Shown here in pieces: positions 317 to 38,112 of a stretch of 38,220 nt of DNA. Below the pieces are notes generated by a model that saw only the letters and a program-made list of their open reading frames with translations, searched no databases and was not told the origin of the DNA. How positions within the stretch are numbered: position 1 is the first letter of the stretch; each line of letters starts with the position of its first letter. The DNA comes from Slackia sp. ZJ119. GTDB taxonomy: Bacteria; Actinomycetota; Coriobacteriia; Coriobacteriales; Eggerthellaceae. The position numbers and the translations under genes were made by a program. Where the stretch lies: NCBI RefSeq assembly GCF_011039175.1, contig NZ_JAAKEN010000023.1, positions 1-38,220 of the forward strand. Reading direction: 5' to 3'.

Positions 317-325
317 TGCTATAGT
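317..325 (+). promoter_or_regulatory. Extended -10 promoter of small-peptide locus 1
   Basis: TGC followed by TATAGT is an extended -10 element (TGnTATAAT type); no good -35 hexamer is seen at the usual distance. Transcription would start near 331-332. The predicted transcript then begins exactly where complementarity with the 3' tail begins. Locus 2 carries an equivalent element at 32115-32123. Confidence 0.5.
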
Positions 326-357
326 CGGGATCAGGCACCGGTCGGTCCGACGCGGGC

Positions 358-384
358 GGCGCTTCTTGAAGAAGGAGTGGTGCC
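358..384 (+). promoter_or_regulatory. Shine-Dalgarno hairpin of small-peptide locus 1
   Basis: CTTCTT (362-367) pairs with AAGGAG (372-377) across the loop GAAG, and GGC (358-360) can pair with GCC (382-384) to extend the stem. The AAGGAG is the ribosome-binding site for the ATG at 387, so the fold would block translation. The left side overlaps a block (353-362) that can instead pair with the 3' tail at 566-575, which suggests alternative mRNA states. The structure is read by eye, not computed. Confidence 0.55.
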
Positions 385-386
385 CT

Positions 387-527
387 ATGTTCGACTCGAT
401 CCTCTCCACCTTGGCAGCTGCTGCTGCCATTGCCACGTTCCTGCTGGAGGCGTGGCTCGCTTGGAAGGAATACCGGCCAGGCAGAAAACGATCGGATGGC
501 GACGGGAATGATGCTAATGAAAAGTAA
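387..527 (+). CDS. Small hydrophobic/charged peptide, candidate type I toxin (copy 1)
   Basis: This encodes 46 residues. After MFDS comes a hydrophobic Ala/Leu/Ile-rich stretch of about 20 residues that could span a membrane, then a strongly charged tail (KEYRPGRKR and an acidic end). The ATG at 387 was chosen over an upstream in-frame ATG at 261 because GAAGGAG lies 9 bases before it and because the leader architecture matches locus 2. A short hydrophobic segment plus charged tail is typical of Hok, Fst and TxpA type I toxins, but I see no clear match to any of them. The surrounding RNA elements (buried Shine-Dalgarno, 5'-3' pairing, antisense promoter) support the toxin reading. A plain small membrane protein is the alternative. 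Confidence 0.6.
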   Translation: MFDSILSTLAAAAAIATFLLEAWLAWKEYRPGRKRSDGDGNDANEK

Positions 528-607
528 TGGGCGGCAGTAGCAGCTGCCACCCATTCTAAAACCCCGCGCCGCCCGTAGAACGTTAACGACGAACGGGCCG
601 TGCCGGT
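519..607 (-). ncRNA. Predicted antisense RNA antitoxin of small-peptide locus 1
   Basis: The RNA is inferred from a minus-strand extended -10 (TGC TATAAT, 614-622), giving a start near 607, and the terminator hairpin at 526-555 with its T-run ending near 519. The roughly 90-base RNA would be fully complementary to the 3' untranslated tail of the peptide mRNA, including the blocks that close on the 5' leader. No expression evidence is available. Confidence 0.45.
526..555 (-). terminator. Hairpin at the copy 1 stop codon; terminator of the predicted antisense RNA
   Basis: Arms 526-537 and 544-555 form a 12-pair stem with a 6-base loop. Read as plus-strand RNA it has one C-A mismatch. Read as minus-strand RNA that position becomes a U-G wobble and the stem is complete, and it is followed by ACTTTTC. 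The strand asymmetry and the T-run point to termination of minus-strand transcription. Confidence 0.55.
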
Positions 608-613
608 GCCTTG

Positions 614-622
614 ATTATAGCA
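614..622 (-). promoter_or_regulatory. Extended -10 of the antisense RNA, locus 1
   Basis: The minus strand reads TGCTATAAT, a perfect extended -10. TGGCAA lies 17 bases upstream as a weak -35 (3 of 6 matches to TTGACA). The identical nine bases occur in the same orientation and at a similar distance behind peptide gene 2 (32372-32380). Confidence 0.55.
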
Positions 623-6435: not shown

Positions 6436-9400
6436 TTACCGGGTGCGGTCGAGGAGGCGCTTGATGCCGTCTCGGCAGGAGAGCGCGGCGCTTGTGGCCA
6501 GCAGCATCGTCAGCATGGCTGTCGCCAGGGCGGCGGCGCCCGTCTTGTCGTAGGGGGTGGCCTGCGCCGGTTCCGGGGCGCCGGCGCCTGGGCCGGCCGG
6601 CACGTCAGGGCTTTTGCCCGGCCTGCCCGGTTCCGGCACGCAGGTTTCGCCCAGCACGTCTTGCACCGAGACGGTCTGGGCTTCGTCGTTTACGTCTGCG
6701 TGCGCGGCGACGATTCGGCCGTCAAGCGAAAGGGCTTCGAACGCGACCAGGTCGTGCCCGTCAAGCCCGGCGGTCGACAGCGCCATTTCCACGTCGACGG
6801 TCCCGCTTGGCTGGTTGGGGACGAACGATTTGCGTGCGGCGACCTCGATGCCGTTTGAGACGACGGGATGCCCGGTCTCCTTGTCGACGAGCGTGCCGGC
6901 AAGCACGTATTCGCGTCCGGGCACGACGTTTTCATAGCTCACCTCGTCAACGACGCGGACCCATTCGTTCCTGGCGAGGAACTGGTCGCTGTCGGAAGCG
7001 TCTTTCGCGTTGGTGAAGATCGCGGGGGCCATCACCGTGACGGTTTGGGCCTGGTCGTCCAGGTCTTCGTGGGCGGCGACGACGGCGCCTTCGCGCAGCA
7101 GCTTTTCGAAGACGACGATCTGCCGGTCGTTTTGGCCCGAGCAGTCGAACTCGAAGGCGACCTCGACGGAGCCGGCCGCTTTTGCGGGGATGAAGGCGAC
7201 GTCGGCCGTCACGGCGTTGCCTGCGGCGTCGGCGTAGGGCTTGCCGGTCTCCTTGTCCATGAGCAGGCCCGATGCCGTGTATTCCTTGCCTGGCACGAGT
7301 CCTTCGTAAGACAGCGTGTCGATAATCTTCGCCTTGGAGTCCGCTGCTGCCTGCTTGTCGTTGTCGGCGGCGTCTTTGGCGCTCGTTGCGATCCGGGGCG
7401 ATGCGACCGTGACGGTCTGCCCTTCGTCTTCGAGGTCTTCGTGACTTGCGATGACCTTTTCGGTCAATAAAAGCTTTTCGCAGGCGACGAGCGCCGCCTC
7501 GCCCAACATGCTGGCGTCGAAGTGGAATTCGATCCGCTCGGTGCCTGAGGGCACGTGCGGCCTGAAGGTCTTGGTCGCGCCCACGGGCTTGCCGTCCGCC
7601 CCGATGAGCGGCTCGCCGGTCGACTGGTGCACGAGCAGGCCCGATATCGTGTATTCCTTGTCGGGCACGAGCCCGTCGTAGGCCACGGTGTCGACGACGA
7701 CGGCCTCGGGGTCGGCGGCAACGAGCTTGTCTCCGTCTGCGCCGTCGGCCGCCGTCGTTTTGATTTTCAGCGCCGCCACCTCGACCGTCTGTCCCGCGTC
7801 GTCAAGGTCGGCGTGCGTTGCCACTTCGACGCCGTCTTTTGCGAGCGACTCGAACGCCACGACCTCCTGGCCGCCCAAAGCCGTTGCGTCGAAGCCCAGG
7901 TCGAGCTGCACTTCCCCTTCAGGAAACACCGGCTTGAAGGTCTTGGTCGCGCGGACGGGGTTGCCCTCGTCGTTGGCGAGGGGCTCGCCGGTCGATTTCA
8001 ACACGAGCGTGCCGATGAGCGCGTACTGGGCGCCCGGCACGAGGCCGGCATAGGCCACCGTGTCGGTCACCAGGGCGTTTGTGCCGGGCGATACCGTCTT
8101 GTTGCCATCCAGCGCGTCGACGGCGGTCGTGGCGATGGACGGTTCTTCCACCTCGACCGTCTGTCCTGCGTCGTCGAGGTCGGCATGAGCCGCCACTTCG
8201 ACGCCGTCTTGGAGCATCGTTTCGAAGACGACGAGGCGCTCGCCGGCGAGCTCTGTCGCGTCGAAGTCGAACGCAAGCTCCATCTCGCCGCTCGGCAGCT
8301 GGGGCGTGAAGGACCGTCCGGCTGCGACGGGGCTTCCTTCGGCGTCGAGCAGCGGCTTTCCGGTGGATTTGACCATCACCTGGCCGCGGACGACGTATTC
8401 GGCGCCCGGCACGAGGCCGGCGTACGACACCTGGTCGACGATGGACGCCCCCGGTCCGGCCGAGACGGTCTTGTCTCCGTCGGCCGCATCGGTCGCAGAT
8501 GTGCCCACCTCGGCGTTTGCAACGACGACCGTCTGGCTTTCGTTGTCGAGCTCGGCGTGCGTCGCCACTTCGGCGCCGTCGCGCAAAAGCGTTTCGAAGA
8601 CGACCACGCTGTCGGAGGCAAGCTCTGTCGCGTCGAAGGGAATCTCGACGTCGACGGACCCCTTGCTTTCGTCGGGTGTGAAGTCCTTGCGTGCGCGAAT
8701 CGTCTTGCCGGCGGCGTCTTCGACCGGCTTTCCGCTTGACTTGACGGCGAGCGTCGCTTCGAGGCGGTATTCCTTGTCTGGCACGAGGCCTTTGTAAGAC
8801 ACCGTGTCGACGACGGTCGCCGCAGGCCCCGCCGCCACCAGCTTGTCCTCGTCGGCGCCGTCGCGGGCGGTCGTCTCTATGGCGACGCCGGTGACGACGA
8901 CGGTCTGGGCCTTGTCGTTGATGTCTGCGTGCGCCGCCAGCTCAATGCCGTCCTGTGACAGCGCTTCAAACGCGACGATCTCTTCTCCGGCAAGCGTGCT
9001 CGCGTCGAAAGCGAAGAGCAGGTCCACTTCTCCGGATTCGTCCTCGGCGACGAACTCCGTTTTGGCCGTGACGGCAAGGCCGCTTTCGTCGCGCACCGGC
9101 TCTCCGGTCGACTTGCACATGAGCGTGCCGGCCATCGCATAGGTTTTGCCGGGAACGAGGTTTCTGTACGACACCGTGTCGAGCACTTCGGCCTGCGCGT
9201 CGGCGGCGATCTTCTTGTCGCCGTCGGCGGCGTCGGTCGCCTTGGTGCCGATTCTGGGCGCGTCGACGCGCACGGTTTGGGCGCCGTCTTCGATGTCCTT
9301 GTGCTCGGCCAGGGGCTTTGCGCCGGGCTTGGGGTTGCCCTCGGCGTCGACGTCGCTCGCCAGGTAGAGCTCTTCGAAGACGGTCGTCTGCGCTTTGGCG

Positions 9401-12400
9401 ATCACGGTCGAGTCGAAGGTGAAAGCCACGTTCACGAGCCCGTTTTTCGAGGCAGGCGTGAAGCGTGCGGAAGACGTGCCCTTCGAGGCTTCCTCGCCGT
9501 CGAAGACCGGGACGGCGGCGCCGTCGTCTCCTTTTTTCATGAGCGTGCCGACGAGCGCGTATTCGCGCCCAGGGACAAGCGACGTGTGGCTCACCGTGTC
9601 GATGATGCCGCCCGTCGCGTCGGCGTGCATGACCTTGTTGCCGTCGGCGGCGTCGGCGGCCTGCGTGCCGATCTCGGGGGTCCCGTCGCCGTTTTCCGCG
9701 TCTTCGAGCGTGCCGAGGTTGATGTAGTGCTTGTCGCGGTAGATGTGGATGTTCTTGACGGTTATCAGGTCGTATCCGACGGTCGCCTCGCAGGGCAGCT
9801 CTTCGAGCGTGTACCAGTCGTAGGGAAGGGCGCCCGCGCCGTCGACGACCGGCACGCTCCAGCCCTCGCTTGTCAGTCCGAACCACGTGCCGCGATGGGA
9901 CCGGTATCCCGTTGTCGTGTCGTCGTTGGCGTTGGTTTCGAAGGAGTGCGCCGCCCATTCGGCATGGGTGGAAGCCTCGCCGTTGGCGTCGGTGACGAGG
10001 ATGTGGCGCTCGCCGGTCGTCTGGCTGATGAGTGCGAAGGGCACGCCCGCAAGCCGCCTCATGTCGGGCGCTCCCACCTTCACGAGCTGCAAGTCGCCGC
10101 GCATGACCTGGTTGCGCCAGGACTTCGTGTTGTCCGAGGCTGCTTGGTCGTAGGTCTCGTCGCTCCAGGTGGCGTCCACCTCGCCTTCGGTGCGGATGCG
10201 GAAGCGGCGCTGCGCCCCGTCGAGCATCAGATACCCTTCTCCTGGCGCGACCTCGGCGATGTCGTAGGTGCCGTAGGGCAGCGCCTTGCCTTCGGTCTTT
10301 GCGATGCCGTCGGCGCCGGCGTATATCGTGGCGCACACCTCGCCCGGCTCGTAGGGCACGCCGCCCACGATGACGCGGTTTTCGCTGCGGTTCGTGATCT
10401 CGAAGGCCGTTTTCTCCAGCTTCGCGCCGCCGAGCGGGGTGAGCAGGTACGATTCGTTGTCGCGCTTGTGGACGAGCACGTCTCCGCGCACGACCATGTT
10501 CTTGTAGCGCTCGCCGTCGACGGTGCCGTCTTTGTGGAAAGGCTGGTAGACGACGCCGTCTTGGCGCACCTCGACCGTGCGCACGGATGTGTCGGTGAGG
10601 TTGTAGGTGTCGTTGGTCGCCGATTCGTACACCTCGTAGGTGCCGAAGGGCAGGCAGTCGGCCGCCGTTTTCGCATAGCCGTCTTTGTTCGTGGTGATCT
10701 GCTTGACCACTTCTCCCGGCTGGCAGAGGCGTCCTTCGACGAACACCGGGGCTGCCGAGACGTTCTTGATGTCGAAGACGATGCCGGAGAGCCACGCGTC
10801 GCCCTGGGGCAGGTTGTCGTCGCTTTCGACGTCCACCTTCCACAGCTCGACCCCGCCGCGCCACACCTTGTTGAAAAACGAGCTGCTGCCGGAAAACGGC
10901 GTGACGATCTTTTTGTCCTCGCGGATCGTGAACGTGCGTGCCGCGCCGTCGGTCAGGTGGTAGCCTGGGCTTGCGGCGGTTTCTTGGATGTCGTAGGTGC
11001 CGAACGGCAGCGTCTGAGTCCCGGTCGAGGCGTTGCCGTCCTTGTCGGTCGCAATCGTCGCCACGACGCGGCCGGGCGCGTATTCCACGCCGTCGACGAC
11101 GACGCTTCGGGCGGACCGGTTCGTGATGCGAAACACCGTGCCGGCGAGCGTCGCATCGCCTTGCGGGGCGTTGTGCCGGGTGTCGAAATCGCGCTTCTGC
11201 ACGGCAACGCCGCCGCGCACGACCTGGTTTCGGTAGTCGCCGCCCGCGTCGCACGGGGCTGCGATCTGGCCGTCGGCGGTGATCGAGAACGTGAGCGCCT
11301 TGCCGTCGGTCAGCCGGTAGCTGCCGTTCGTCGCCGACTCGCGTATCTCGTACGTGCCGATGGGCAGCGATTCGTCGCCGGTCGTCGCCGTGCCGGACGC
11401 GTCGGTCTCGATCGTCTTGACGTCTTCGTCGACGGAAAACTCGACCCCGTCCACCACCACGCTGTGCGTTGATTTGTTAGTTATGGTGAACTCTATGCCG
11501 GCAAGGCTCGCGTCGCCCTGCGGTTCGCGCCGCTTGGTCTGCGCGTCGGCCTTGCGGACTTCGACGCCTCCGCGCTCCACCTTGTTGAAGAAGGCGTCGT
11601 CATCGGCGAAAGGCTTGACGATTGCCAGGTCTTCGGCGATGGAAAAGGAGCGGGGCGCTCCGTCGGTCAGGCGGTAGCCTGCGGGCGCCTCCACTTCGCG
11701 GATCTCGTAGGCGCCGCAGGGCAGCAGGTTTTCGGCGGTGGCGGCGGCTCCGGCCTCGTCGGTCGTCATCGTGGCGACGACCTGCCCTGGAGCGTATTCG
11801 ACGCCTTCGACGACGACGCTTTGGGCGGACCGGTTCGTGATCGTGAAGACGGTGCCTTCCAAGACGGCGTTGCCCTGCGGCTCGCTGCGGTGCGTGTCGA
11901 AGTCCCGCTTCTCAAGCGCCACGCCGCCGCGCACGACCTCGTCTTTGAACGGGCCCGCGCCTCCTGCGCGGGGCGTGCTTTCCGCTTTGCCGCCTTCGGA
12001 CGCCGGGGCGGCGCTGGCGGCTTCGGTCTCGGTCGCAGCCGCTGCAACCGCCGCCGCGTTCGGCGAGCAGGCGTCGACCACCGCTCCCGGAGTGCGGATC
12101 GAGACGGTGCGCGTCGTGGCGTCGGTGGGGCGGTACGTGTCGTTTGAGGCGGACTCGCTGATTTCGTAGGTGCCGTAAGGCAGGCAGTTCGCCGGGGTCG
12201 CGGCGACTCCTGACGCGTCGGTGGCGATGGTCTTCACGACGGCGCCGACCGGGCATTCCGTCCCTTCGACCGTGACCGGATGTTTTGATACGTTTTTGAT
12301 CTCAAACTTGATGCCGGCGAGGCTTGCCTGGCCCTGCGGAACGGGCCGCCCCGTTTCGGCGTCGGTTTTCAGCACCGACACGCCGCCGGTGATCGGCGCA

Positions 12401-14502
12401 TCGGCGAAATCGAGCCTGAGGGCGGCGCTCGCGCTGCCGAACTGGGCCGTGGCTTTTGCGCCTGCCGTCTGCATGCCGTTGGCCGCCACCTTTATAAGCT
12501 TCTTGCCCGTGGCACGGACGTAGCCGGCCGGCGCCTTCGTCTCTTCGACGACATAGCAGCCGATCGGCCAGTACGCCTTCGATCCGTGCAGGTACAGCGG
12601 GCTGCCGGACGCCGGCTTGCCCGCGTCGATGCGCCCGCCGGCGTCGGTGGCGAAGACCCATGACGCGGCCAGGTGCCTGCTTTCAACCTGCGCGATCGTC
12701 GCTGCGTCGAACCCTGCGAACAGCGCGGGGCTGACGTCGTAGTAGGAGATGCGGAATTCGCCGCCTTCGAGCGTCGCGTCGCCTGCGGCCTGCGGCTTGC
12801 CGGTCGGCTGGTCGATCTTTTGCAGCACGGCCTGCGGCTCGAAGTACTGCACCTGGTCGGAGAACGTCGCGGCGTTGTCGCGGTCGGCCCGTGCGTCGAT
12901 GCGCTTTGCCTCGGAGCTCGCATTGAAGCCGGCCGGCGCTTTGATCTCCTTGACCCAGTAGGTGCCTGCGGGCAGCCACTTGCTTTCGGCGATGGCTCGT
13001 TCGCGGTAGTCGTAGGCCTGGTCGGCGGGCCGATAGGCCCCGCGCGGGTCTTTCGTGACCATCTCGTCGACCTTGTTCGTGCAGGCCGCGTCCGTGTAGA
13101 CGCCGAAGGTTGCGCCTCCGAGCGCATAGGCGCCGTTGTTGTTCGTCCATGCCTCGGCCGAGGTCTTCCACGCCTTCACGTAGGTTTCGGGCTCGTTGAA
13201 AAACGACAGGTAGCCCGAGCGGTCTTCGTCGTCGCGGACGGTGATCGACTTGACGCCGGTCGACAGGGAGTATCCCTTGGGCGCTTGGATCTCTTTGACG
13301 TAGTAGGTTCCGGGATCGAGCCAGGCGGTTTCGGCAAGCGACCAGGCTTGCGGGTCCTCGTGGCGGCTCGGCTCGTGCGTGGCGTTCGCGAAGTTGCTCG
13401 TCGTCGTGAGCGTCTGCACGAGGTTTGTGCAGGCCGCGTCGGAATAAACGCCGAACTTCGCTTTGGCCAGGCTGTAGTGGGCGTCGACGGTGACCGCCTT
13501 GTCTCGCGTCGACCCCTTCCACACCTCGAACCAGCCGCGCGGCTCGTGGAGGCGCCAGGTGGCGTAGACCTTCTGCTTGCCGATGGAGGCCTGGTCCCAG
13601 TCGCCGTAGGCGCCGCCGTTGTTGACCAGCAGAAAGAACGTCGCGGTGTAGTACTGCCCGTCGTCGCTCCAGTACGACTCGTTTTCCAGCAGGCAGAGCC
13701 GGGCGGGGCGTGGATTGGCATAGTCTCTCACCGTGTAGTTGTTGCCTTGGCAGCAGTGCGTCCTGCCCGTCGAGCTGAGGCCCGTGTACGTAAGGCCTCG
13801 GGAATTCGTCTCGCTCGTCAGTTCGTAGCGATAGTCCGAAATGCCCCAGCCGGGGAAGTTGCCGCCGGTGCTCGGGTCGTTCACGAACATGTAGTAGGCG
13901 TCGGTGAGGTTGGGCGGATAGGAGAACGGCGGGCTTCCGGAAAGCTCGGCGGTGAGGGTCACCCGCAGCGTCATGCCCGCCAGCTTGTAGGATTGGGTGT
14001 TGGGGTCCCACGTGAGGTCGCCGTTTTCGAAGGGGTTGCCGATGTTGTAGTTGAGCGCATAGACCGACGGGCTGCTGTACGCCCGGGGGCTTCGCAGGGC
14101 GACGGCCAGGTTTTCCTTGAAGGGGTTTTCCATGCCCTCGAGGGGGTCTGCGGGGCCGTCGGGGGAGGTGTGCTGGGAAAACGCGGGTGCGCTTGCCCGC
14201 ATCGGGTCGGCGCCGCCCTCGGCCCATGCCGGCGCGTCGCCGAACGGGTTGAAGGGCAAAACCGACGCGTCGTCGGTCCTCAAGTACTCGGCCCACAGCT
14301 CGTCTATGTCGGCGGGCGCCTCGGCTGCGGCGTCGGCGCGAGCGTCGGCGGCCTGTGCGGCGTCGGCGGCCGATCCTGCCGCGGGCGCATCTGCGAACGC
14401 CGCCGCTATGACCGGCTCTGCGAAAAGCGTCGCCGCTGCAAGCGCTGTTGCCGCGAGCGCCGTCGCGATTGCGCTTGCAAGCCTGCGCGTGGTCTTTCTC
14501 AT
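6436..14502 (-). CDS. Giant multidomain surface adhesin with Cna_B/SpaA and VaFE (T-Q ester) repeats
   Basis: The protein has 2688 residues. A basic, Ala-rich signal peptide (about 1-35) is followed by an N-terminal domain (to about 330) that may hold the binding function. Three Cna_B/SpaA-like domains follow (about 330-700), each ending in a VKEIKAPAG-type strand. Next are seven further SpaA-like domains (about 704-1600), most beginning RGGV or RGDx and carrying a YxIxE motif. Eight VaFE repeats of about 110-130 residues follow (from about 1608), each starting near a D-A-D-G-K motif and ending in H-x-D-x-x-D-x-x-QTV. In related domains a Thr-Gln ester bond links these positions. The C-terminus has a Pro/Gly-rich spacer, TPYDKTG, a hydrophobic segment and a basic tail, which is an unusual sorting signal. 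The ATG at 14502 follows an AGGAGA site; an upstream in-frame ATG lacks one. Confidence 0.92.
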   Translation of the reverse strand: MRKTTRRLASAIATALAATALAAATLFAEPVIAAAFADAPAAGSAADAAQAADARADAAAEAPADIDELWAEYLRTDDASVLPFNPFGDAPAWAEGGADPMRASAPAFSQHTSPDGPADPLEGMENPFKENLAVALRSPRAYSSPSVYALNYNIGNPFENGDLTWDPNTQSYKLAGMTLRVTLTAELSGSPPFSYPPNLTDAYYMFVNDPSTGGNFPGWGISDYRYELTSETNSRGLTYTGLSSTGRTHCCQGNNYTVRDYANPRPARLCLLENESYWSDDGQYYTATFFLLVNNGGAYGDWDQASIGKQKVYATWRLHEPRGWFEVWKGSTRDKAVTVDAHYSLAKAKFGVYSDAACTNLVQTLTTTSNFANATHEPSRHEDPQAWSLAETAWLDPGTYYVKEIQAPKGYSLSTGVKSITVRDDEDRSGYLSFFNEPETYVKAWKTSAEAWTNNNGAYALGGATFGVYTDAACTNKVDEMVTKDPRGAYRPADQAYDYRERAIAESKWLPAGTYWVKEIKAPAGFNASSEAKRIDARADRDNAATFSDQVQYFEPQAVLQKIDQPTGKPQAAGDATLEGGEFRISYYDVSPALFAGFDAATIAQVESRHLAASWVFATDAGGRIDAGKPASGSPLYLHGSKAYWPIGCYVVEETKAPAGYVRATGKKLIKVAANGMQTAGAKATAQFGSASAALRLDFADAPITGGVSVLKTDAETGRPVPQGQASLAGIKFEIKNVSKHPVTVEGTECPVGAVVKTIATDASGVAATPANCLPYGTYEISESASNDTYRPTDATTRTVSIRTPGAVVDACSPNAAAVAAAATETEAASAAPASEGGKAESTPRAGGAGPFKDEVVRGGVALEKRDFDTHRSEPQGNAVLEGTVFTITNRSAQSVVVEGVEYAPGQVVATMTTDEAGAAATAENLLPCGAYEIREVEAPAGYRLTDGAPRSFSIAEDLAIVKPFADDDAFFNKVERGGVEVRKADAQTKRREPQGDASLAGIEFTITNKSTHSVVVDGVEFSVDEDVKTIETDASGTATTGDESLPIGTYEIRESATNGSYRLTDGKALTFSITADGQIAAPCDAGGDYRNQVVRGGVAVQKRDFDTRHNAPQGDATLAGTVFRITNRSARSVVVDGVEYAPGRVVATIATDKDGNASTGTQTLPFGTYDIQETAASPGYHLTDGAARTFTIREDKKIVTPFSGSSSFFNKVWRGGVELWKVDVESDDNLPQGDAWLSGIVFDIKNVSAAPVFVEGRLCQPGEVVKQITTNKDGYAKTAADCLPFGTYEVYESATNDTYNLTDTSVRTVEVRQDGVVYQPFHKDGTVDGERYKNMVVRGDVLVHKRDNESYLLTPLGGAKLEKTAFEITNRSENRVIVGGVPYEPGEVCATIYAGADGIAKTEGKALPYGTYDIAEVAPGEGYLMLDGAQRRFRIRTEGEVDATWSDETYDQAASDNTKSWRNQVMRGDLQLVKVGAPDMRRLAGVPFALISQTTGERHILVTDANGEASTHAEWAAHSFETNANDDTTTGYRSHRGTWFGLTSEGWSVPVVDGAGALPYDWYTLEELPCEATVGYDLITVKNIHIYRDKHYINLGTLEDAENGDGTPEIGTQAADAADGNKVMHADATGGIIDTVSHTSLVPGREYALVGTLMKKGDDGAAVPVFDGEEASKGTSSARFTPASKNGLVNVAFTFDSTVIAKAQTTVFEELYLASDVDAEGNPKPGAKPLAEHKDIEDGAQTVRVDAPRIGTKATDAADGDKKIAADAQAEVLDTVSYRNLVPGKTYAMAGTLMCKSTGEPVRDESGLAVTAKTEFVAEDESGEVDLLFAFDASTLAGEEIVAFEALSQDGIELAAHADINDKAQTVVVTGVAIETTARDGADEDKLVAAGPAATVVDTVSYKGLVPDKEYRLEATLAVKSSGKPVEDAAGKTIRARKDFTPDESKGSVDVEIPFDATELASDSVVVFETLLRDGAEVATHAELDNESQTVVVANAEVGTSATDAADGDKTVSAGPGASIVDQVSYAGLVPGAEYVVRGQVMVKSTGKPLLDAEGSPVAAGRSFTPQLPSGEMELAFDFDATELAGERLVVFETMLQDGVEVAAHADLDDAGQTVEVEEPSIATTAVDALDGNKTVSPGTNALVTDTVAYAGLVPGAQYALIGTLVLKSTGEPLANDEGNPVRATKTFKPVFPEGEVQLDLGFDATALGGQEVVAFESLAKDGVEVATHADLDDAGQTVEVAALKIKTTAADGADGDKLVAADPEAVVVDTVAYDGLVPDKEYTISGLLVHQSTGEPLIGADGKPVGATKTFRPHVPSGTERIEFHFDASMLGEAALVACEKLLLTEKVIASHEDLEDEGQTVTVASPRIATSAKDAADNDKQAAADSKAKIIDTLSYEGLVPGKEYTASGLLMDKETGKPYADAAGNAVTADVAFIPAKAAGSVEVAFEFDCSGQNDRQIVVFEKLLREGAVVAAHEDLDDQAQTVTVMAPAIFTNAKDASDSDQFLARNEWVRVVDEVSYENVVPGREYVLAGTLVDKETGHPVVSNGIEVAARKSFVPNQPSGTVDVEMALSTAGLDGHDLVAFEALSLDGRIVAAHADVNDEAQTVSVQDVLGETCVPEPGRPGKSPDVPAGPGAGAPEPAQATPYDKTGAAALATAMLTMLLATSAALSCRDGIKRLLDRTR

Positions 14503-14967
14503 GTCCGTCTCCTGTCCTTGCGCCGCTCTGCCCGCCACGTCCGCCTTTTTGCGTCGGCGGGGCGTCGATGGCCGCATCGCGGGCTGCGGCCAGTCTAGCG
14601 CGGGGACCTTTCACGGATTTCACTCAGACCTTGCAAAACGTGCCATCGAATCTCACGCGCTTCGACGCGGTTTCTTGCCGAAACCTCGTCGCGCTGCCGC
14701 CAAAACGTGCCAAAACCTCTCGCCGGCCTTGCCGGAACGGGCCAAAAACCTTGCCAACTTCGACGTCGTTGCTTGTTCGGCCCGCGTCGCGGCCGTGCGC
14801 GAAACCGGCGCGTGTAACCTATCTTTAACAGGGGCGTTTCGTGCAGCGGCCCCCGAGCGGCCCCCGTTTCGGCTACCATGGCACGATGTCTGCAACGAAC
14901 GCGGCTTCGACCAGGGATGTTGCGGGCATGCAAGCAAAGACGGACCCCGGGGGAGAAAGGTGCGCGT
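14503..14967. other. Intergenic region between adhesin and glmS
   Basis: This 465-base divergent region must hold promoters for the minus-strand adhesin and plus-strand glmS. No confident -10/-35 pair was found. AAAACGTGCCA occurs twice in direct orientation (14635-14645 and 14703-14713), and further looser GCCAAAA variants lie between about 14700 and 14757. An AT-richer stretch at about 14813-14830 could be a glmS promoter. No credible ORF or RNA gene is seen. Confidence 0.4.
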
Positions 14968-32114: not shown

Positions 32115-32123
32115 TGTTAGAAT
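32115..32123 (+). promoter_or_regulatory. Extended -10 promoter of small-peptide locus 2
   Basis: TGT followed by TAGAAT is an extended -10; the sequence around it is AT-rich and no clear -35 is seen. The start would fall near 32130, just before the first block (32132-32138) that is complementary to the 3' tail. Confidence 0.5.
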
Positions 32124-32161
32124 ATGCCCGTCAACGGATGTAAGTCCTGTACGCCGGGCGG

Positions 32162-32185
32162 CACCTTCTTCAAAGGAAGGAGGTG
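32162..32185 (+). promoter_or_regulatory. Shine-Dalgarno hairpin of small-peptide locus 2
   Basis: CACCTTCTTC (32162-32171) pairs with GAAGGAGGTG (32176-32185) across loop AAAG: 10 pairs, one of them G-U. The right arm contains the very strong ribosome-binding site for the ATG at 32194, so the site is fully buried. The first bases of the left arm also belong to the block that pairs with the 3' tail, so the two folds may compete. Confidence 0.65.
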
Positions 32186-32193
32186 ATACTGTC

Positions 32194-32304
32194 ATGGACG
32201 TTATCGCATCTGCCGTGAAGCTGGCGGCCTCGGTCGTGGCTCTTGCGCGTGAGATCGCGGCGCTCGTCAAGGCGTACGGTCGGCACAAAGAAGAGGATCG
32301 CTAG
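32194..32304 (+). CDS. Small amphipathic/charged peptide, candidate type I toxin (copy 2)
   Basis: This encodes 36 residues. A mostly Ala/Val/Leu segment with Lys9, Arg19 and Glu20 reads as an amphipathic or short membrane helix and ends in a charged tail (YGRHKEEDR). It resembles copy 1 in layout and in the ALVKAYGR versus WLAWKEYRPGR region, but identity is low. The start is set by GGAAGGAGGTG, 8 bases upstream. The stop codon lies within a perfect 10-bp hairpin. Its RNA context (buried Shine-Dalgarno, 5'-3' pairing in three blocks, antisense promoter) supports a type I toxin. I know of no named family for it. Confidence 0.65.
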   Translation: MDVIASAVKLAASVVALAREIAALVKAYGRHKEEDR

Positions 32305-32365
32305 CTGCAACTAGCGATCCAACTACCAAACGGTGCCGCCCGCCACAAACTACAGGCCTTCCGTT
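32286..32365 (-). ncRNA. Predicted antisense RNA antitoxin of small-peptide locus 2
   Basis: A minus-strand start near 32365 follows the extended -10 at 32372-32380. The end is set by the hairpin at 32295-32320 and the TCTTCTTT tract beyond it. The RNA of about 80 bases would cover the stop codon and the 3' tail of the peptide mRNA, including two of the three leader-complementary blocks and most of the third. It is predicted from sequence only. Confidence 0.5.
32295..32320 (-). terminator. Hairpin at the copy 2 stop codon; terminator of the predicted antisense RNA
   Basis: GGATCGCTAG (32295-32304) and CTAGCGATCC (32311-32320) form a perfect 10-bp stem with a 6-base loop. On the minus strand TCTTCTTTG follows, whereas on the plus strand AACTACC follows, so termination is expected for minus-strand RNA. 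Confidence 0.6.
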
Positions 32366-32371
32366 GGCTGC

Positions 32372-32380
32372 ATTATAGCA
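32372..32380 (-). promoter_or_regulatory. Extended -10 of the antisense RNA, locus 2
   Basis: The minus strand reads TGCTATAAT, identical to locus 1 (614-622). It lies within a larger palindrome, CATTAT-a-GCAC and GTGC-a-ATAATG (32371-32397), that could also end the sense transcript. Confidence 0.55.
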
Positions 32381-32397
32381 CACGGCGTGCAATAATG

Positions 32398-32844
32398 CCC
32401 TCTTCTGAAAAACTGTGCATCATTTGCTTGCGCTGACGAGCTCAGCCGCTTTTTGAAGGCATTTGAGACGTCGATTTCAAAACGATTTCATTTGTATATA
32501 AAGACCCAATTATGGTTCATCTGTTGCGCCGAAGGGGCTGCTTGGCAATGCGGCGGCTTGCCGATATGGTGTGCCCTGTGGTTCTTTTGATGTGCCTTTG
32601 TCGCGCCTGAGGTTTGTCAGCGCAGCTGTTTGCGCCGAGTTTTTCCTTGTTATCGCGGTGTTTTTCCGCCGGTGCCGTTGGCTTGAAATCCTTGCACTAC
32701 AACAAACGAACACAATTGTCAGGGCGAATCACCTGGTCGAAAGCGTTTCGATGCGGCGCGGTATAAAAAGCTTTTGCAAGATCGTTAATGTATGGCACAA
32801 TGGTTACGTCCTATGTTGTAAACCATATGAAGAAAGGTCAACAT
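32398..32844. other. AT-richer intergenic region before the second surface-protein gene
   Basis: No credible gene is seen in these 447 bases, which are AT-richer than most of the window. They hold the palindrome TCGAAAGCGTTTCGA (32738-32752), a TATAAA at about 32763 and TTGCAA near 32775 as loose promoter parts, and a possible solitary array-type motif (32772-32797). The next gene's promoter must lie here. Confidence 0.5.
32738..32752. promoter_or_regulatory. Operator-like palindrome upstream of the surface-protein gene
   Basis: TCGAAAGCGTTTCGA has perfect 6-bp arms around GCG. The form is like LacI-family operators (GAAAnCGnTTTC type). It lies about 95 bases before the start codon. No cognate regulator is encoded in the window. 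Confidence 0.35.
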
Positions 32845-35800
32845 ATGTCCAAAATAAAACCTCTTGCCTCCAAAACCTATGCGGGAGGGGGCAAGGTTCT
32901 CAGCGTGATCCTTGCTGGAACCCTCGCTCTTGGCATGACCCCGGCCGCCGCCCTGTCCCAGGCGGCGCTGGATGCGACTCCTGCGTACGCGACCGAGACG
33001 GCTGACGCTCAGTCTTTGACGACTTGGGATGGCTTTAATGCCAGCGATGCCGATACGATTGAGCTTACGGCTGTACCGGCGACTTCTTTTACCTACGATG
33101 GCGAATCGCACGTTTTGGCGACGACCGATTTCACGGTCCGACTCGTTGTTACCGGTGGCGCTGCGGCAGGCACGTACACCTTGGCGAATGGTGCCGCTGA
33201 AGGGGTTGAGGCGCTGTACGAGGTGACTTCTGTCGCCGATTCCGATAGCTCTCTCGTCTCCGAAAAGTCGGTGGAAAACGGCGGTGACTACACTGTCGAA
33301 ATCACTGCGACCACTGGTGCGCCCAAAGTAGACGGCAATGGTGAATATGATGAAGGTTCGGGAAGCGAACCTTCGTGTGACGCCACCCTCACTGTCGCTC
33401 CGTACTTGCTGGGGACTTCGCCGGTCACTCCGGCCAACGCTGTCGTGGGCGTCACGACGGGCGAAAAGCTGGTCGAGACCACGCTGGCCACTGCAGGAAC
33501 GACCTCTTTCGGCGTCGATATCAAAGACCTGCTGGAGGTTGCGTATACCGGCTCGACGGGCGACCAAACCAAGCCTGCCTACAATGTGGCTGGCGAGGTG
33601 GACGTTACCGTTGAGGTCAAGGACCAGGACGAAAACAAGAGCAACTATGCCTTCGCTGAAGGCGCCACGCCGGAAAATTACGTGCAAACTTTGAACAAAA
33701 AGGCTCAAGCCGAGGTCAAAGGCACTTATAACTTGGTGTTCGGCACTGCAAACCCAGACATCGTTGCCGATCCTGCGGTTTCGAAGACCAAGAATTTTCC
33801 AATTTCGCCGTTTCCGGACATAGCTGTGACTACGATGTTCCCTGGGAACCAGCCGGGCGATCCTGACGTCGAGAAGGCCATCCCTGCTGACGCCTATGAA
33901 GACGGCGTTGTTTGGAGGAAGAGCGGCGTCGTAGCAGATCCGGTCTTCCCTGGCGTGTACACGGGCAGCGCTCAGATTGGCGGTGCGAACGGCAAACAGG
34001 CCAACAACACCATTAGCCTGAAGATCGTCGGTCAGCTCGGCGACGTGACCGATGACAACAAAGAACAGATCTCGGCTACCGTTGGGGGGCAGCCTGTTTC
34101 CGGCACGGTTAAAATTGCCGGCGCTGCCACCAAGGAGGCCATCGAACAGCAGATCCTTGGTGCGCTGAAGGTGGAACTGTCTGATGGAGAATCTAAGCCC
34201 ACGACGATGGTCGTGCCTCAGGAATGCTTGAAGGTCTCCGTTCCCGGCACGGCTACGAGCGGCACGGCCGTCGTCATGGCGACCGAGGCTGCCGGCGGCC
34301 TGTACGAGGGCTCCTTCAATATCGCCTACGAATTCGGCCAGGCGTTCCCGAAGGCCGAGTTGACCTTCGATGGTGGCGAATTGCCGTACTTCGGCACCGA
34401 AGGCTACGATTTCGATAAGCTCGTGAAATTCGTCGATGACGAGGGCGAAACGATCAGCGATCGCGCTCCCCAAAAAGACACGGACTACGAGGTGAAGATC
34501 ACCCGCAAGGACGCCGAAGGCGAATTCGTCGAGGTCGAAGGCGTTGAAGACGTTGGCGAGTACAACATCGCCATCACCCCGAAGGGTACCACCTACTTCG
34601 GCGCCGTCCAAAACATCGGCGTCACGATCACGCCCGTCGAGGTGACTACGGCCAACTCGACGGCGACGTGGGACGGTCTGACCGGCGCCAGCACGAACTA
34701 CACCACCGTGTTCACCGGCTCCGAAGTGGCTCCGCTTCCCACGTACACGGTGAAGCTCGTGAATCCGTTCGATGAGGACGCCGATCCTGAGTTCTTCACG
34801 GTAAATGTTGTCAAGAAAACCGACGCTACCCCCGCCGACGCCACTGTTGTGACCTATCAGAACAACAAGAACGTCGGCGACGCCACGGCCACCGTCGAAT
34901 TCAACGGCAACTTCACCGGCGAGCTTTCGACGAACTTCGAGATCACGCAGGCCAACATCGCCAATGCGAGCGTCTCCGCTCAGTCGCAGCTCTACGTCGA
35001 GGGTGCCGACGTGACGGTCGAGAAGCCCATCGTCACCTACGGCGAAGCCACGTTGGTCGAAGGCGAGGACTATACGGTCGATCCCAAGAGCATTAAAAAG
35101 GATAGTGATGACGGGCCAGGCGTTGCCACTTACAGCTTCACCGTTGAAGGCATCGGCAACTACGCTGGCACGAAGACGGGCACCTTCAAGGTGACGAACA
35201 AGGACATCGCCGAGCTGTGGGCCATCACGGCTGACGATGGTCCGCACTTCTACAACATGGGTGAAGAAGTGCTTGCGCCGCTCACCATCAAGGATGCTAG
35301 CGCTGCTGCTGAGGTTCATGCGCTCTATGAGAACGTCACGGCTAACGATCCCGATGGCGCCTTCATCGTGGAATACGCCAACGACACCCAGGCCGGCACC
35401 GCTACGGTGACCGTCACGGGCACGGGCGACTATGCCGGCTCGCAGACGCTCACCTACGACATCCAGGCGTTGGAGCTCACCGACGCCTCTAACGCTGACG
35501 GCTCCGTGAAACTGGGCGGCGCGGACGACCTGGTCTACACGGGCAAGCAGCAAGTGCCGCGTGTGCTGACCGAGTCCGAGCTCACCCCGGTGAACGAGGG
35601 CTACGAGGACGGGCCGATTTCCTACATGGATTTCTGGGACGAGATGACGGCTGCTCCTGAGTCTGACGACTCCGGCATCAATGCTGGCACGTCGTACCTG
35701 GTCCTCACCCCGACAACCGACAACTTCACCGGCTCGGTGAAGGTTCCCTACGAGATCGCGCCTGCCGAGCTGACGTCCGAAAACGTGTCCTTTGCTGAGT

Positions 35801-36945
35801 CCATCGCCCCCGGCGCCTCTGCGTCTGACGCGGTGAAGGTCACGTTCGGCGACGCCATCCTCGTCGCCGGCACGGACTACACCGTCGAGGCTGCAGGCGA
35901 GCTTCCCGGCACGGTCGAGGCGACCGTCACGGGCAAGGGCAACTTCTCCGGCACGGTCGAGAAGGTGACGGCCAAGGTCCTCTACGACCTGTCGAAGGCC
36001 GACGTCTCGGTCGAGCCCGCCGTTTACAGCGGCGAGGCCCAGGAGCCCAAGGTCGAGGTCAGCTACGAGGCCGGCGGCGAGAAGGTCGTCGTCGACCCGG
36101 GCGCCTACGGCGTGACGGTCGAAGGCGAGGCCACCGACGCCGGCTCCTACCGGGTGACGGTGGCGGGCAACGAGGACGCCGGCTGGACGGGCGAGAAGCA
36201 GGCCGACTTCGTCATCAACCCGGCGACGGTCTCCGCCAAGCCGCAGGTGTCCTACGACGCGGCCGGCCTGCCGGTCGTGACGGTGCCCGGCCTGACCGCG
36301 AGCGACTTCGACTACAAGGCGGACCCGGCGACCAAGACCATCACGGTCACCTACAAGGGCAACTACACGGGCACGGCCACGGTCGACTACAAGCCCGCGC
36401 CCGCGCCTACGCCCGTCCCGGCCAAGGACGGCTGGGTCGGCTCCGGCGACGACTGGGCCTACTACGAGAACGGCCAGGCCGTCAAGGGCCAGTGGAAGTG
36501 GATCGACAACGCCTGGTACCACTTCGAGAAGAGCGGCCAGATGACGAACACCCAGTGGTTCCAGGACGCGGACGGCACGTGGTACCTCCTGAACCAGTCC
36601 CACAAGGGAAGCTACGGCGCCATGCTCACCGGCTGGCAGAAGGTCGGCGGCGAGTGGTACTACATGAACAAGTCCGGCGCCATGCTCTCCGGCTGGTTGA
36701 AGGACGGCGGCGAGTGGTACTACCTCAACGCCAAGCACGACGGCTCCTTCGGCCGCATGCTCACCGGCTGGGCGAAGGTCGGAGGCGACTGGTACTACCT
36801 GGACGCCTCGGGCGCCATGCTCACCGGCTGGCAGCTCGTCGGCGGCAAGTGGTACTACCTGGAAGCCTCCGGCGCCATGGCCGCAAGCGAGTGGGTCGGC
36901 CCCTACTGGGTCAACGCCTCCGGCGTGTGGACGGCCACCCGCTAA
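32845..36945 (+). CDS. Secreted surface protein with beta-rich repeats and C-terminal wall-binding repeats
   Basis: The protein has 1366 residues. A signal peptide (about 1-50; basic start, hydrophobic VILAGTLALGMT, AYA cleavage site) is followed by about 1140 residues of Gly/Thr/Val/Asp-rich beta modules. These repeat motifs such as YTVxxxxxxxxxxGTVEATVTGKGNFSG, resembling bacterial Ig-like or MBG-type domains. From about residue 1190 to the end there are Trp/Tyr repeats (GWxxxGGxWYYxxxSGAM) of the choline-/glucan-binding type, which hold proteins to the wall without covalent bonding. No LPxTG signal is present, so it does not depend on the sortase. ATG 32845 has GAAAGG 7 bases upstream; ATGs at 32788 and 32827 are less well placed. 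Codon use shifts sharply at about 35850. Confidence 0.88.
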   Translation: MSKIKPLASKTYAGGGKVLSVILAGTLALGMTPAAALSQAALDATPAYATETADAQSLTTWDGFNASDADTIELTAVPATSFTYDGESHVLATTDFTVRLVVTGGAAAGTYTLANGAAEGVEALYEVTSVADSDSSLVSEKSVENGGDYTVEITATTGAPKVDGNGEYDEGSGSEPSCDATLTVAPYLLGTSPVTPANAVVGVTTGEKLVETTLATAGTTSFGVDIKDLLEVAYTGSTGDQTKPAYNVAGEVDVTVEVKDQDENKSNYAFAEGATPENYVQTLNKKAQAEVKGTYNLVFGTANPDIVADPAVSKTKNFPISPFPDIAVTTMFPGNQPGDPDVEKAIPADAYEDGVVWRKSGVVADPVFPGVYTGSAQIGGANGKQANNTISLKIVGQLGDVTDDNKEQISATVGGQPVSGTVKIAGAATKEAIEQQILGALKVELSDGESKPTTMVVPQECLKVSVPGTATSGTAVVMATEAAGGLYEGSFNIAYEFGQAFPKAELTFDGGELPYFGTEGYDFDKLVKFVDDEGETISDRAPQKDTDYEVKITRKDAEGEFVEVEGVEDVGEYNIAITPKGTTYFGAVQNIGVTITPVEVTTANSTATWDGLTGASTNYTTVFTGSEVAPLPTYTVKLVNPFDEDADPEFFTVNVVKKTDATPADATVVTYQNNKNVGDATATVEFNGNFTGELSTNFEITQANIANASVSAQSQLYVEGADVTVEKPIVTYGEATLVEGEDYTVDPKSIKKDSDDGPGVATYSFTVEGIGNYAGTKTGTFKVTNKDIAELWAITADDGPHFYNMGEEVLAPLTIKDASAAAEVHALYENVTANDPDGAFIVEYANDTQAGTATVTVTGTGDYAGSQTLTYDIQALELTDASNADGSVKLGGADDLVYTGKQQVPRVLTESELTPVNEGYEDGPISYMDFWDEMTAAPESDDSGINAGTSYLVLTPTTDNFTGSVKVPYEIAPAELTSENVSFAESIAPGASASDAVKVTFGDAILVAGTDYTVEAAGELPGTVEATVTGKGNFSGTVEKVTAKVLYDLSKADVSVEPAVYSGEAQEPKVEVSYEAGGEKVVVDPGAYGVTVEGEATDAGSYRVTVAGNEDAGWTGEKQADFVINPATVSAKPQVSYDAAGLPVVTVPGLTASDFDYKADPATKTITVTYKGNYTGTATVDYKPAPAPTPVPAKDGWVGSGDDWAYYENGQAVKGQWKWIDNAWYHFEKSGQMTNTQWFQDADGTWYLLNQSHKGSYGAMLTGWQKVGGEWYYMNKSGAMLSGWLKDGGEWYYLNAKHDGSFGRMLTGWAKVGGDWYYLDASGAMLTGWQLVGGKWYYLEASGAMAASEWVGPYWVNASGVWTATR

Positions 36946-37158: not shown

Positions 37159-37506
37159 TCCTCCGCCCGCCTTTTCGATCCCGCCGACGACGTGCGGGGG
37201 CCTGCGCTCGCCCGAGCGCGAGCCCCCGCGGGCCGTCGGCCCGCGCCCGCCGCCGAGTTCGCGGCGGACCTCTTCGCGCCTTTGCCCGGGGCAACCTTTC
37301 TCATTCGACCCGCGGCGCGGCGCTGCGCGTCGGGCGACCTTTCACTTCAGCCGGACGCCGACAGAAGGGCCGGGGGCCCACGGACAGCCTTTCTTCACAA
37401 GCCCGCCCCCGGCTCCCTTTTCGCCTCGTTCGCCGACTTCGCTCTTTACGACCGCAATCCACGCTGGCCGGCGTCAATCCGGGATTCAAGGGTCAAGCTG
37501 GCGGTC

Positions 37507-37900
37507 CAGTTATGCAGCCTGTGGCAACACGTGGCATTGGAGGCAGCGGTTTTGTGCAGTTGTGCAGGCTGTGGCAACGCTCAATGGCGAACGCTGCGGT
37601 TTTGTGCAGTTATGCAGTCTGTGGCAACGCACTGCGGGGGAAAGACCGGGATTTCGTCCAGTTATGCAGCCTGTGGCAGCGTTTGACAACGGAAGCGGGA
37701 ATTCTGTGCAGTTATGCAGGCTGTGGCAATCCCCGTTTAAGCGGTGAATTCCCCCATGCTTCTGACCAGGCCTTTTGGAAACCAATAAGTTGGTATAGGG
37801 TAACTTTTTGGGGTAAATACGGAAATCCGCTGCCATACCCTGCATAACTGCACAAAAAACGAGAGTCCGTTGTCAAACGCTGCCACAGCTTGTAAATTTG
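37507..37900. repeat. 50-bp-period repeat array: five direct and two inverted units
   Basis: The core CAGTTATGCAGnCTGTGGCA occurs at 37507, 37557, 37607, 37659 and 37709 (spacings 50, 50, 52, 50). Inverted copies occupy 37831-37850 and 37881-37900, again 50 apart. Usually TTGTG or GTC precedes the core. Bases 37671-37693 and 37866-37888 are a perfect 23-bp inverted repeat, so unit 4 pairs with the last inverted copy and unit 5 with the first. Spacers are partly conserved, which argues against a CRISPR array. Confidence 0.8.
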
Positions 37901-38112
37901 CACAAGCGGCGGCGTTCTGCCTCGCCTAAGGCTTCTGTCGCTGCCGGGTTCCACTCGTCTGGAGTCTCGCCCATCCGTGATCAGGCCCCTTCCGGACCAA
38001 CGCCCGCTCGGAGTTTTCCCTCAGCCGGCCCCCTGCCTGTGCCGGCATAGTGCCCATCCGCGGTTTCGACCAACGCCAGCCCCGTTCGCCGACCCTTCAT
38101 TGAATTTGTTTT

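Follow-up and report, generated by a model that had tools for sequence, protein, structure and literature searches.

A probable type I toxin-antitoxin-like module with co-varying mRNA ends and a convergent antisense RNA in Slackia and other Coriobacteriia

In a 38,220-nucleotide stretch of the genome of Slackia sp. ZJ119, an actinobacterium with gut species among its relatives (contig NZ_JAAKEN010000023.1, positions 1 to 38,220; hereafter the window), we identify a locus at 32115-32380 that quite probably represents a chromosomal type I toxin-antitoxin-like module with an antisense RNA. In this locus, designated copy 2, the leader arm follows a -10 box and precedes a hairpin holding the Shine-Dalgarno (SD) sequence. 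The 36-codon frame comes next and has a hairpin at its stop codon; beyond it lie another arm, complementary to the leader arm, and, on the opposite strand, a further -10 box. Another locus, copy 1, lies at about 316-622; its parts follow the order of copy 2, and its peptide is different. A first-pass annotation had already proposed a type I toxin-antitoxin reading, and this proposal gains support from fold controls, from compensatory changes among homologues, and from antisense promoters together with strand-specific mismatches. Sequence comparison supports the two promoters, the terminator of the antisense RNA, co-variation between the arms, the shared bases of an arm and the SD hairpin, and selection on the peptide; expression, toxicity, the involvement of RNase III and the order of the on and off states are what we infer. 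The parts of copy 2 are as follows.

32118-32123, plus strand: sense promoter, -10 box TAGAAT, extended (TGTTAGAAT from 32115); transcript start expected near 32130
32132-32165, plus strand: leader (left) arm, with CAACGGA, CCTGTA and CGGGCGGCACC; co-varies with the right arm
32162-32185, plus strand: SD hairpin, AGGAGG at 32178-32183; assigned to this strand by the subfamily A mismatch counts given below
32194-32304, plus strand: gene for a 36-residue peptide, candidate toxin of subfamily A, TAG at 32302-32304; supported by homologues and by the ratio of nonsynonymous to synonymous differences (pN/pS)
32295-32320, minus strand: stop-codon hairpin, read as the terminator of the antisense RNA from mismatch asymmetry and a T-rich tail
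32332-32366, plus strand: right arm, with GGTGCCGCCCG, TACAGG and TCCGTTG; co-varies with the leader arm
32285-32366, minus strand: predicted antisense RNA (RNA II), about 80 nt, ends estimated from promoter and terminator
32372-32377, minus strand: antisense promoter, -10 box TATAAT, extended (TGCTATAAT, 32380-32372), from the -10 box scan

The six complementary blocks (three pairs) that the first-pass annotation had listed for copy 2 were all found where it had placed them. The ten-pair SD hairpin that it described is likewise present, formed by CACCTTCTTC and GAAGGAGGTG with one G·U among the ten pairs; however, CACC (32162-32165) is common to the third block and to this hairpin, so that the two cannot both form in full. 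The right arm belongs to the 3′ part of the peptide mRNA, its opposite strand is the 5′ half of the antisense RNA, and the T-rich tail of the stop-codon hairpin is the complement of the C-terminal codons (about 32285-32294). The minus-strand promoter and the stop-codon hairpin, both absent from that annotation, turned out to be key parts.

One line of evidence is the co-variation of the leader and the 3′ arm. Homologues were found by peptide profiles and by Rfam's Collinsella-1 model and were divided into subfamily A (the type of copy 2) and subfamily B (the type of copy 1). Pairing was tested in 44 A and 40 B representatives, less than 80% similar, by comparing the best contiguous helix between each leader and its own 3′ arm with the helices formed with the arms of other loci; the 2000 swaps per test were kept within each subfamily, which removes shared descent in part. 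For the inner helix, the own score was 27.5 against 19.7 when swapped (standard deviation 0.69) in A and 31.5 against 28.4 (0.42) in B; for the outer helix, the corresponding values were 25.4 against 18.8 (0.57) and 27.7 against 20.2 (0.70). In none of the four tests did any of the 2000 swaps reach the own mean. The arms themselves differ widely from locus to locus, as the inner arm pairs CGGGCGGCACC/GGTGCCGCCCG, GCTGGGCAGCGCC/GGCGCTGCCCAGC, GCTGGGTCGCGCC/GGCGCGACCCAGC and GGGCAGAGCC/GGCTCTGCCC illustrate. Compensatory changes, on which the first-pass annotation had made its reading depend, are seen between the leader and the 3′ arm. A first swap test had used the duplex energies of long segments but was uninformative, since long duplexes with gaps obtained good scores throughout (a mean of -59.1 for own and -51.9 for swapped pairs, with the own pair often not ranking first); contiguous-helix scores took its place. 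When the leader was paired with the antisense RNA, no excess of own over swapped scores appeared in A or B (418 to 1610 of 2000 swaps reached the observed mean), which argues against pairing of the par/Fst kind. In addition, the inner arm overlaps the SD hairpin at 39 of 43 A loci and 36 of 40 B loci.

The strand on which each element folds can be read from its mismatches. After a single transition in a G-C pair, the folding strand has G·U where the complementary strand has A·C. For the SD hairpin, the sense strand shows 19 G·U against 1 A·C in subfamily A and 8 against 0 in B, and for the two arms together 35 against 13 in A and 38 against 8 in B; this excess of G·U suggests that the SD hairpin and the arms fold in the mRNA. 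Tested singly, the inner and outer arms give p values of 0.019 and 0.061 in A and of 0.0074 and 0.00088 in B. The stop-codon hairpin shows the opposite pattern, with 2 G·U against 21 A·C on the sense strand in A and 0 against 3 in B, so it appears to fold in an antisense RNA (SD hairpin versus stop-codon hairpin in A, Fisher 5e-9). It overlaps the stop codon at 38 of 42 A loci, and at least four T within the 8 nt past it were found on the antisense side at 30 of 42 A and 34 of 37 B loci (64/79), against 1 of 42 and 3 of 37 on the sense side (4/79).

Extended -10 boxes, scored out of 11, reached the threshold of at least 9 on the sense side in 23 of 44 A and 21 of 40 B loci, and the antisense side has such boxes at 22 of 44 and 23 of 40; shuffles lead one to expect 1.1-2.1, and the opposite-strand controls gave 2, 2, 5 and 0. 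In an earlier set of 45 representatives, 24 had a sense box scoring at least 9 of 11 (4% expected in shuffles), and the antisense box, counting those scoring 8 or more, starts 71-76 nt past the stop codon at 20 of the 45 loci. The convergent promoter lies directly outside the 3′ arm, and this position, the mismatch lean of the stop-codon hairpin and the T-rich antisense tail together make a short antisense RNA from the minus strand likely. According to the promoters, the terminator and the mismatch asymmetry, a predicted antisense RNA gene overlaps the candidate toxin gene, as is demanded of a type I system.

A small hydrophobic peptide with a charged tail, encoded by a frame under selection, is a further property demanded of a type I system, and the homologues encode such a peptide. 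Its length has a median of 41 residues with, in the median, a positive tail, and all 44 A peptides, but 33 of the 40 B peptides, contain a hydrophobic window of 18 residues (Kyte-Doolittle value of at least 1.6). Over 106 near pairs from both subfamilies, pN/pS is 0.33, and the differences lie mostly at synonymous sites (354 versus 325 single-base codon differences over 3359 versus 9391 sites); by this measure, the frame is under purifying selection. The peptides matched no curated family of Pfam or NCBIfam above its cut-off, where a cut-off was shown. Alignment-wide family scans of 23 A and 15 B peptides gave best E-values of 0.0033 and 0.0023, each from one member, and no relative of subfamily A with a solved structure was found.

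Copy 2 had been regarded as a second copy of the layout of copy 1. The layout is indeed common to both, but kinship of the peptides is not supported: a profile of 11 Collinsella-1-linked B peptides reaches A at best at 0.026. The same profile recovers other B peptides, copy 4 at 8.6e-4 and copy 1 only at 0.28. The parts of copy 1 are given below.

320-325, plus strand: sense promoter, -10 box TATAGT, extended TGC, from the -10 box scan
333-362, plus strand: leader arm, from pairing and co-variation
387-527, plus strand: gene for a 46-residue peptide of subfamily B, from the B profile
526-555, minus strand: hairpin starting within the stop codon, read as antisense terminator from the mismatch and terminator scan
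566-610, plus strand: right arm, from pairing and co-variation
614-619, minus strand: antisense promoter, -10 box TATAAT, from the -10 box scan

The source genome (G000) contains a near-identical relative of copy 1, designated copy 3, on contig C12 at about 60.8 kb, and a fourth family member, copy 4, on contig C37 at 73.4 kb.

Fold controls with shuffled sequences, which the first-pass annotation had proposed as a check, were clearly in favor of real structure. The predicted folding energy of copy 2 (32127-32372) is -107.8 kcal/mol, whereas 200 dinucleotide shuffles average -89.1 +/- 4.8 (z -3.9), two of them folding as well as copy 2 does, and copy 1 (326-620) has a z of -6.3, with none of 200 shuffles as good. 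The statement that such collinear blocks are unlikely to arise by chance also holds: an 11-base inverted pair, 150-260 bases apart, with an outer helix of 6 occurs 13 times in the window and 0.4 times on average in twenty single-base shuffles made in 300-base blocks, which contain no true repeats. Eleven of the 13 cases belong to one inverted repeat near 37.6-37.9 kb, one lies at 11713, and one is copy 2. Several direct copies of a unit ending GTTATGCAG.CTGTGGCAA are found at 37491-37903, with inverted copies at 37831-37903, and they dominate the inverted-pair count of the window. From translations of the open reading frames, we take the upstream neighbor of copy 2 to be a hisI-like gene and the downstream neighbor to be a large repeat protein; the adjoining frame has 1385 codons (32788-36945, plus strand). 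Another very long frame, of 2713 codons (6436-14577, minus strand), and this one have internal repeats, spaced 372/357 nt and 135 nt, and both probably encode cell-surface proteins.

The family is widespread in the order to which Slackia belongs. (L and G numbers are our labels for loci and genomes, and f numbers are those for families.) The A profile, built from 8 and then 23 peptides, matches 87 of 395 genomes of the order at E <= 0.01, in 27 of 123 genera; the weakest of these matches were left unchecked, some lie in long frames, and the layout was checked for part of the matches. The B profile, built from 15 peptides, matches 72 of the 395 genomes at E <= 0.001, in 30 of 123 genera. Reading or computation of the layout covered 87 A and 59 B loci; the layout recurs in genera of three families of the order (f1, f2 and f4), with one more locus, L233, in f9. 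These totals were reached after L123, L015 and L108, as well as other loci with weak SD scores or short flanks, had been dropped (98 to 89) and two loci of the copy 1 type had been moved out of A (89 to 87), and after SD and flank filters had been applied to B (62 to 59). L015 and L017, doubtful peptide matches at E 0.1-1, were read and do not have the layout; L011, L014, L018, L019, L041, L042 and L044 were excluded because of their E-values and frame lengths. L037 holds a good family member.

In a phylum-wide set of 396 genomes, 10 matched the A profile. Nine are in the order, part of them verified, and the tenth, G664 (L251), the sole match outside it, is false, being part of a 183-codon frame that lacks the layout. 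One DNA pattern is shared by 27 named stretches, and 14 of them hold a subfamily A peptide at the right place; these are Adlercreutzia (caecimuris, hattorii, mucosicola and others), Slackia, Anaerotardibacter and other records that we take to be Eggerthellaceae, having looked up Adlercreutzia alone. The remaining 13 hold none, and two of these are labeled Atopobiaceae. One subfamily A peptide used as query found no match in plasmids, and one DNA pattern found none in viral contigs.

Several profile matches per genome are common, with six in G187 (one with an internal stop) and four each in G191, G205, G295 and G309. At L038, L034, L113 and L101, two members lie next to each other, within a few hundred to a few thousand bases. 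In other loci, the peptide gene is altered but the RNA parts persist, with a frameshift in L026/L016, loss of the start codon in L152, and a changed stop that lengthens the frame in L006.

A weak match of the Collinsella-1 model (Rfam RF01700) on the antisense strand of L038 prompted a search of f4, with 14 control genomes, and the model was also run on the source genome. Because the model scores highest in f4, this is probably the family of Collinsella. Of 65 f4 genomes, 28 match at E <= 0.01 and 21 exceed the cut-off, against none of the 14 controls. Of the 40 loci examined among the 46 listed, 20 have a B-profile peptide on the other strand that ends at the terminator of the RNA, and the model covers the antisense RNA of subfamily B loci in f4, with promoter and terminator. 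Scores reach 212 bits for L135, 132 bits for L149 and 43-49 bits for L146-L148. The peptide-bearing loci above the gathering score are L135, L138, L139, L142, L144, L146-L149 and L151; the others stay at 23-34 bits, short of the cut-off of 35, apart from L152, which has lost its start codon (37.3 bits).

Half of the examined Collinsella-1 loci differ from the peptide-bearing members of the family in having no peptide match. L135 and four other strong matches carry a B-profile peptide; of the 17 strongest, all over 150 bits, 12 gave no hit with the profile. Among the 20 loci that lack a match, a contig end truncates L155 and L164, L167 retains just the tail of a peptide, and the others that were read have a different sequence beside the terminator; L129, L137, L140, L145, L150, L153, L157, L158 and L160 are loci without a match on the other strand. 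Such loci may be lone antisense RNAs or decaying copies. Copies 1 and 2 of the window do not match the model above its gathering score. A 2010 paper (PMC2864571) names Collinsella-1 once, in a table, where it is listed as probably an RNA, probably not cis-regulatory and probably not a riboswitch.

We propose the following mechanism. Two promoters about 250 bp apart would face each other. The plus strand would give an mRNA for the short hydrophobic peptide with its charged tail, with the SD sequence in a hairpin, and the minus strand would give RNA II, about 80-100 nt long, which would start just outside the 3′ arm and stop at the hairpin of the toxin stop codon. Along its whole length, RNA II would thus be complementary to the final codons and the 3′ part of the mRNA. 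Its 5′ half has much of its sequence in common with the mRNA leader, and leader and RNA II would compete for the 3′ arm. By pairing with the 3′ part of the mRNA, RNA II may mark the mRNA for RNase III, and it would free the leader, complete the SD hairpin and turn translation off; when RNA II is missing, the peptide would be made and may harm the membrane.

We give an even chance to the order of events in which RNA II binding closes the SD sequence and shuts the peptide off. When the target of RNA II is blocked, the predicted exposure of the SD sequence falls from 0.213 to 0.170 in A (p 7e-4) and from 0.259 to 0.194 in B (p 0.002). Locus by locus, exposure is predicted to be slightly higher in the closed full-length mRNA than with this target blocked, with 18 A loci up by more than 0.05 and 4 down, and 17 B loci up and 5 down. 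The overlap of the arm with the SD hairpin and this shift in exposure favor competition between the leader and RNA II for the 3′ arm.

Several observations weigh against the proposal. The SD sequence is predicted to be mostly paired in every state, and the effect of RNA II is small, so we do not take it as proof. In copy 1, the predicted fold places the inner arm in a longer SD hairpin instead of pairing it with the 3′ arm, and a shorter modeled RNA leaves only 0.8 long-range pairs; good arms or long-range pairs are missing from a few loci (e.g., L027, L058, L118 and L125). Taken by itself, the mismatch test of the arms gives modest p values in A (0.019 inner, 0.061 outer), where the outer window also takes in symmetric -10 boxes, and the mismatch count of the stop-codon hairpin in B is small (0 against 3). 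That hairpin overlaps the stop codon at only 15 of 37 B loci and directly follows it at 19 of 37, and the coding of a lysine-rich peptide tail may itself contribute T on the antisense side. The local hairpin of the right arm, which bears on the 3′ end of the mRNA, leans to the sense strand in A (13 against 1) and to the antisense strand in B (5 against 13), so its role may differ between the subfamilies. Moreover, the near pairs behind the pN/pS value are not independent of one another.

We consider a different order, similar to that of Hok and AapA, less likely than the one proposed above. In this alternative, closure of the 5′ and 3′ ends would yield an inert store, 3′ trimming would activate it, and RNA II would act only on the trimmed mRNA, an order known from AapA3 according to a section of PMC6733600. 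Long-range pairs do dominate the predicted ensemble of the full-length mRNA (at least 10 pairs in 37 of 45 loci of the earlier set, and in 37 of 44 A and 33 of 40 B loci). However, trimming would here remove most of the target of RNA II, unlike in hok or AapA, and closure is predicted to raise the exposure of the SD sequence slightly, not to reduce it. Because the arm overlaps the 5′ strand of the SD hairpin, closure would weaken that hairpin, which also counts against such an order. The leader-RNA II competition has, in turn, an extension that we offer tentatively and hold somewhat less probable than its failure: the leader of the toxin mRNA would imitate the antitoxin that acts on this mRNA, closure of the SD sequence would depend on how much of each is present relative to the other, and lone Collinsella-1 RNAs would be retained antitoxins that silence other copies of the toxin, a form of RNA anti-addiction.

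The remaining alternatives concern what the locus is. It is unlikely that the small peptide serves normal physiology in the membrane without being toxic, its synthesis being controlled by antisense RNA and long-range RNA pairing; such a reading would leave the RNA anatomy unchanged. Matches in sixfold and fourfold number per genome fit such a role, as does the failure to match any toxin family above its cut-off. The peptide is short and amphipathic, as in TisB/IstR-1, and a few members are weakly similar to TisB (1 of 23 A members at E 0.0033, another peptide at 13.9 bits against a family cut-off of 25); this similarity points toward a toxin, but other, unrelated families come as close below the cut-off (DUF6162 at 0.0061, DUF6223 at 0.0014, Rop-like at 0.015). 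Against a harmless role, the layered silencing by SD hairpin, long-range pairing and antisense RNA, together with the shape of the peptide, resembles type I toxins, and antisense loci without a peptide match are common (20 of 40), and loci with a lost start codon (L152) or a frameshift (L026) occur. An element similar to a miniature inverted-repeat transposable element, or an inverted repeat whose arms pair as DNA or bind a protein with the RNA reading as a by-product, is highly improbable. Copies do occur at scattered sites, and two near-identical ones exist in the source genome, but G·U on one or the other strand according to the element is not expected from pairing of DNA, the open frame is under purifying selection, and the arm sequences vary greatly among loci. 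That the inverted repeats arose by chance in a G+C-rich genome has a negligible probability: the window does contain 29 11-base inverted pairs, copy 2 included (2.1 in shuffles), but the swap tests refute this explanation, and homologues are found in many genera.

Among known systems, the proposed module would work most like BsrG/SR4, in which, according to part of PMC8167048, binding at the 3′ end changes the structure around the SD sequence; the small predicted shift in exposure goes in the same direction here. Unlike in BsrG/SR4 and TxpA/RatA, the antisense RNA would stop at the toxin stop codon, and its 5′ half recurs as the mRNA leader, which is probably a further difference; none of the 23 A and 15 B peptides scanned matched the toxin families of these two systems. 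The par locus of pAD1 (par/Fst) is described in the same source as having convergent small RNAs (RNA I and RNA II), repeats at both 5′ ends, a hairpin between them and a peptide with a charged tail. Convergent RNAs are predicted here as well, with repeats, an intervening hairpin and a small peptide with a charged tail. However, the par repeats are direct and make the 5′ ends complementary, whereas those here are inverted, and the par terminator is bidirectional, whereas the T-rich tail here is mostly antisense, as counted above. Repeat orientation and terminator direction rule out membership in par/Fst, and no Fst-family peptide was matched in Pfam or NCBIfam. In hok/Sok and AapA/IsoA, according to the section of PMC6733600 cited above, a toxin mRNA with long-range 5′-3′ pairing is combined with an antisense RNA, and co-variation and the predicted ensemble indicate such pairing in the full-length mRNA here. 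The differences are that the antisense target lies at the 3′ end and that the arm covers the anti-SD strand instead of the SD sequence. Sequestration of the SD sequence by the 3′ end, as in hok and AapA, was not found: its predicted exposure is not lower in the closed form, and an anti-SD-like CACCTC was seen by eye in only some f1 members. This CACCTC stands next to CAGG in the 3′ arms of L006, L007, L009, L010, L023 and L026, is replaced by TACCTC in L008 and L012, and is absent from copy 2.

The module looks like an undescribed family of RNA-controlled toxins. We found no description of it among the open-licence papers listed for type I systems in Coriobacteriia, Eggerthella, Actinobacteria and Collinsella, or for Collinsella-1. 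A 2025 paper (PMC12390103) states that, until its own cyanobacterial case, Proteobacteria, Firmicutes and Tenericutes were the only groups with known type I systems. If true, a chromosomal type I family in Coriobacteriia (Actinomycetota), whose named members include Adlercreutzia and Slackia, would add a phylum. The family also provides a candidate function for Collinsella-1, an RNA motif without a known function. The mismatch-asymmetry test indicates the folding strand from sequence alone and could reveal other hidden antisense RNAs. If the leader does mimic the antitoxin, this would be a type I family in Actinomycetota with a regulatory logic that we have not found described for others.
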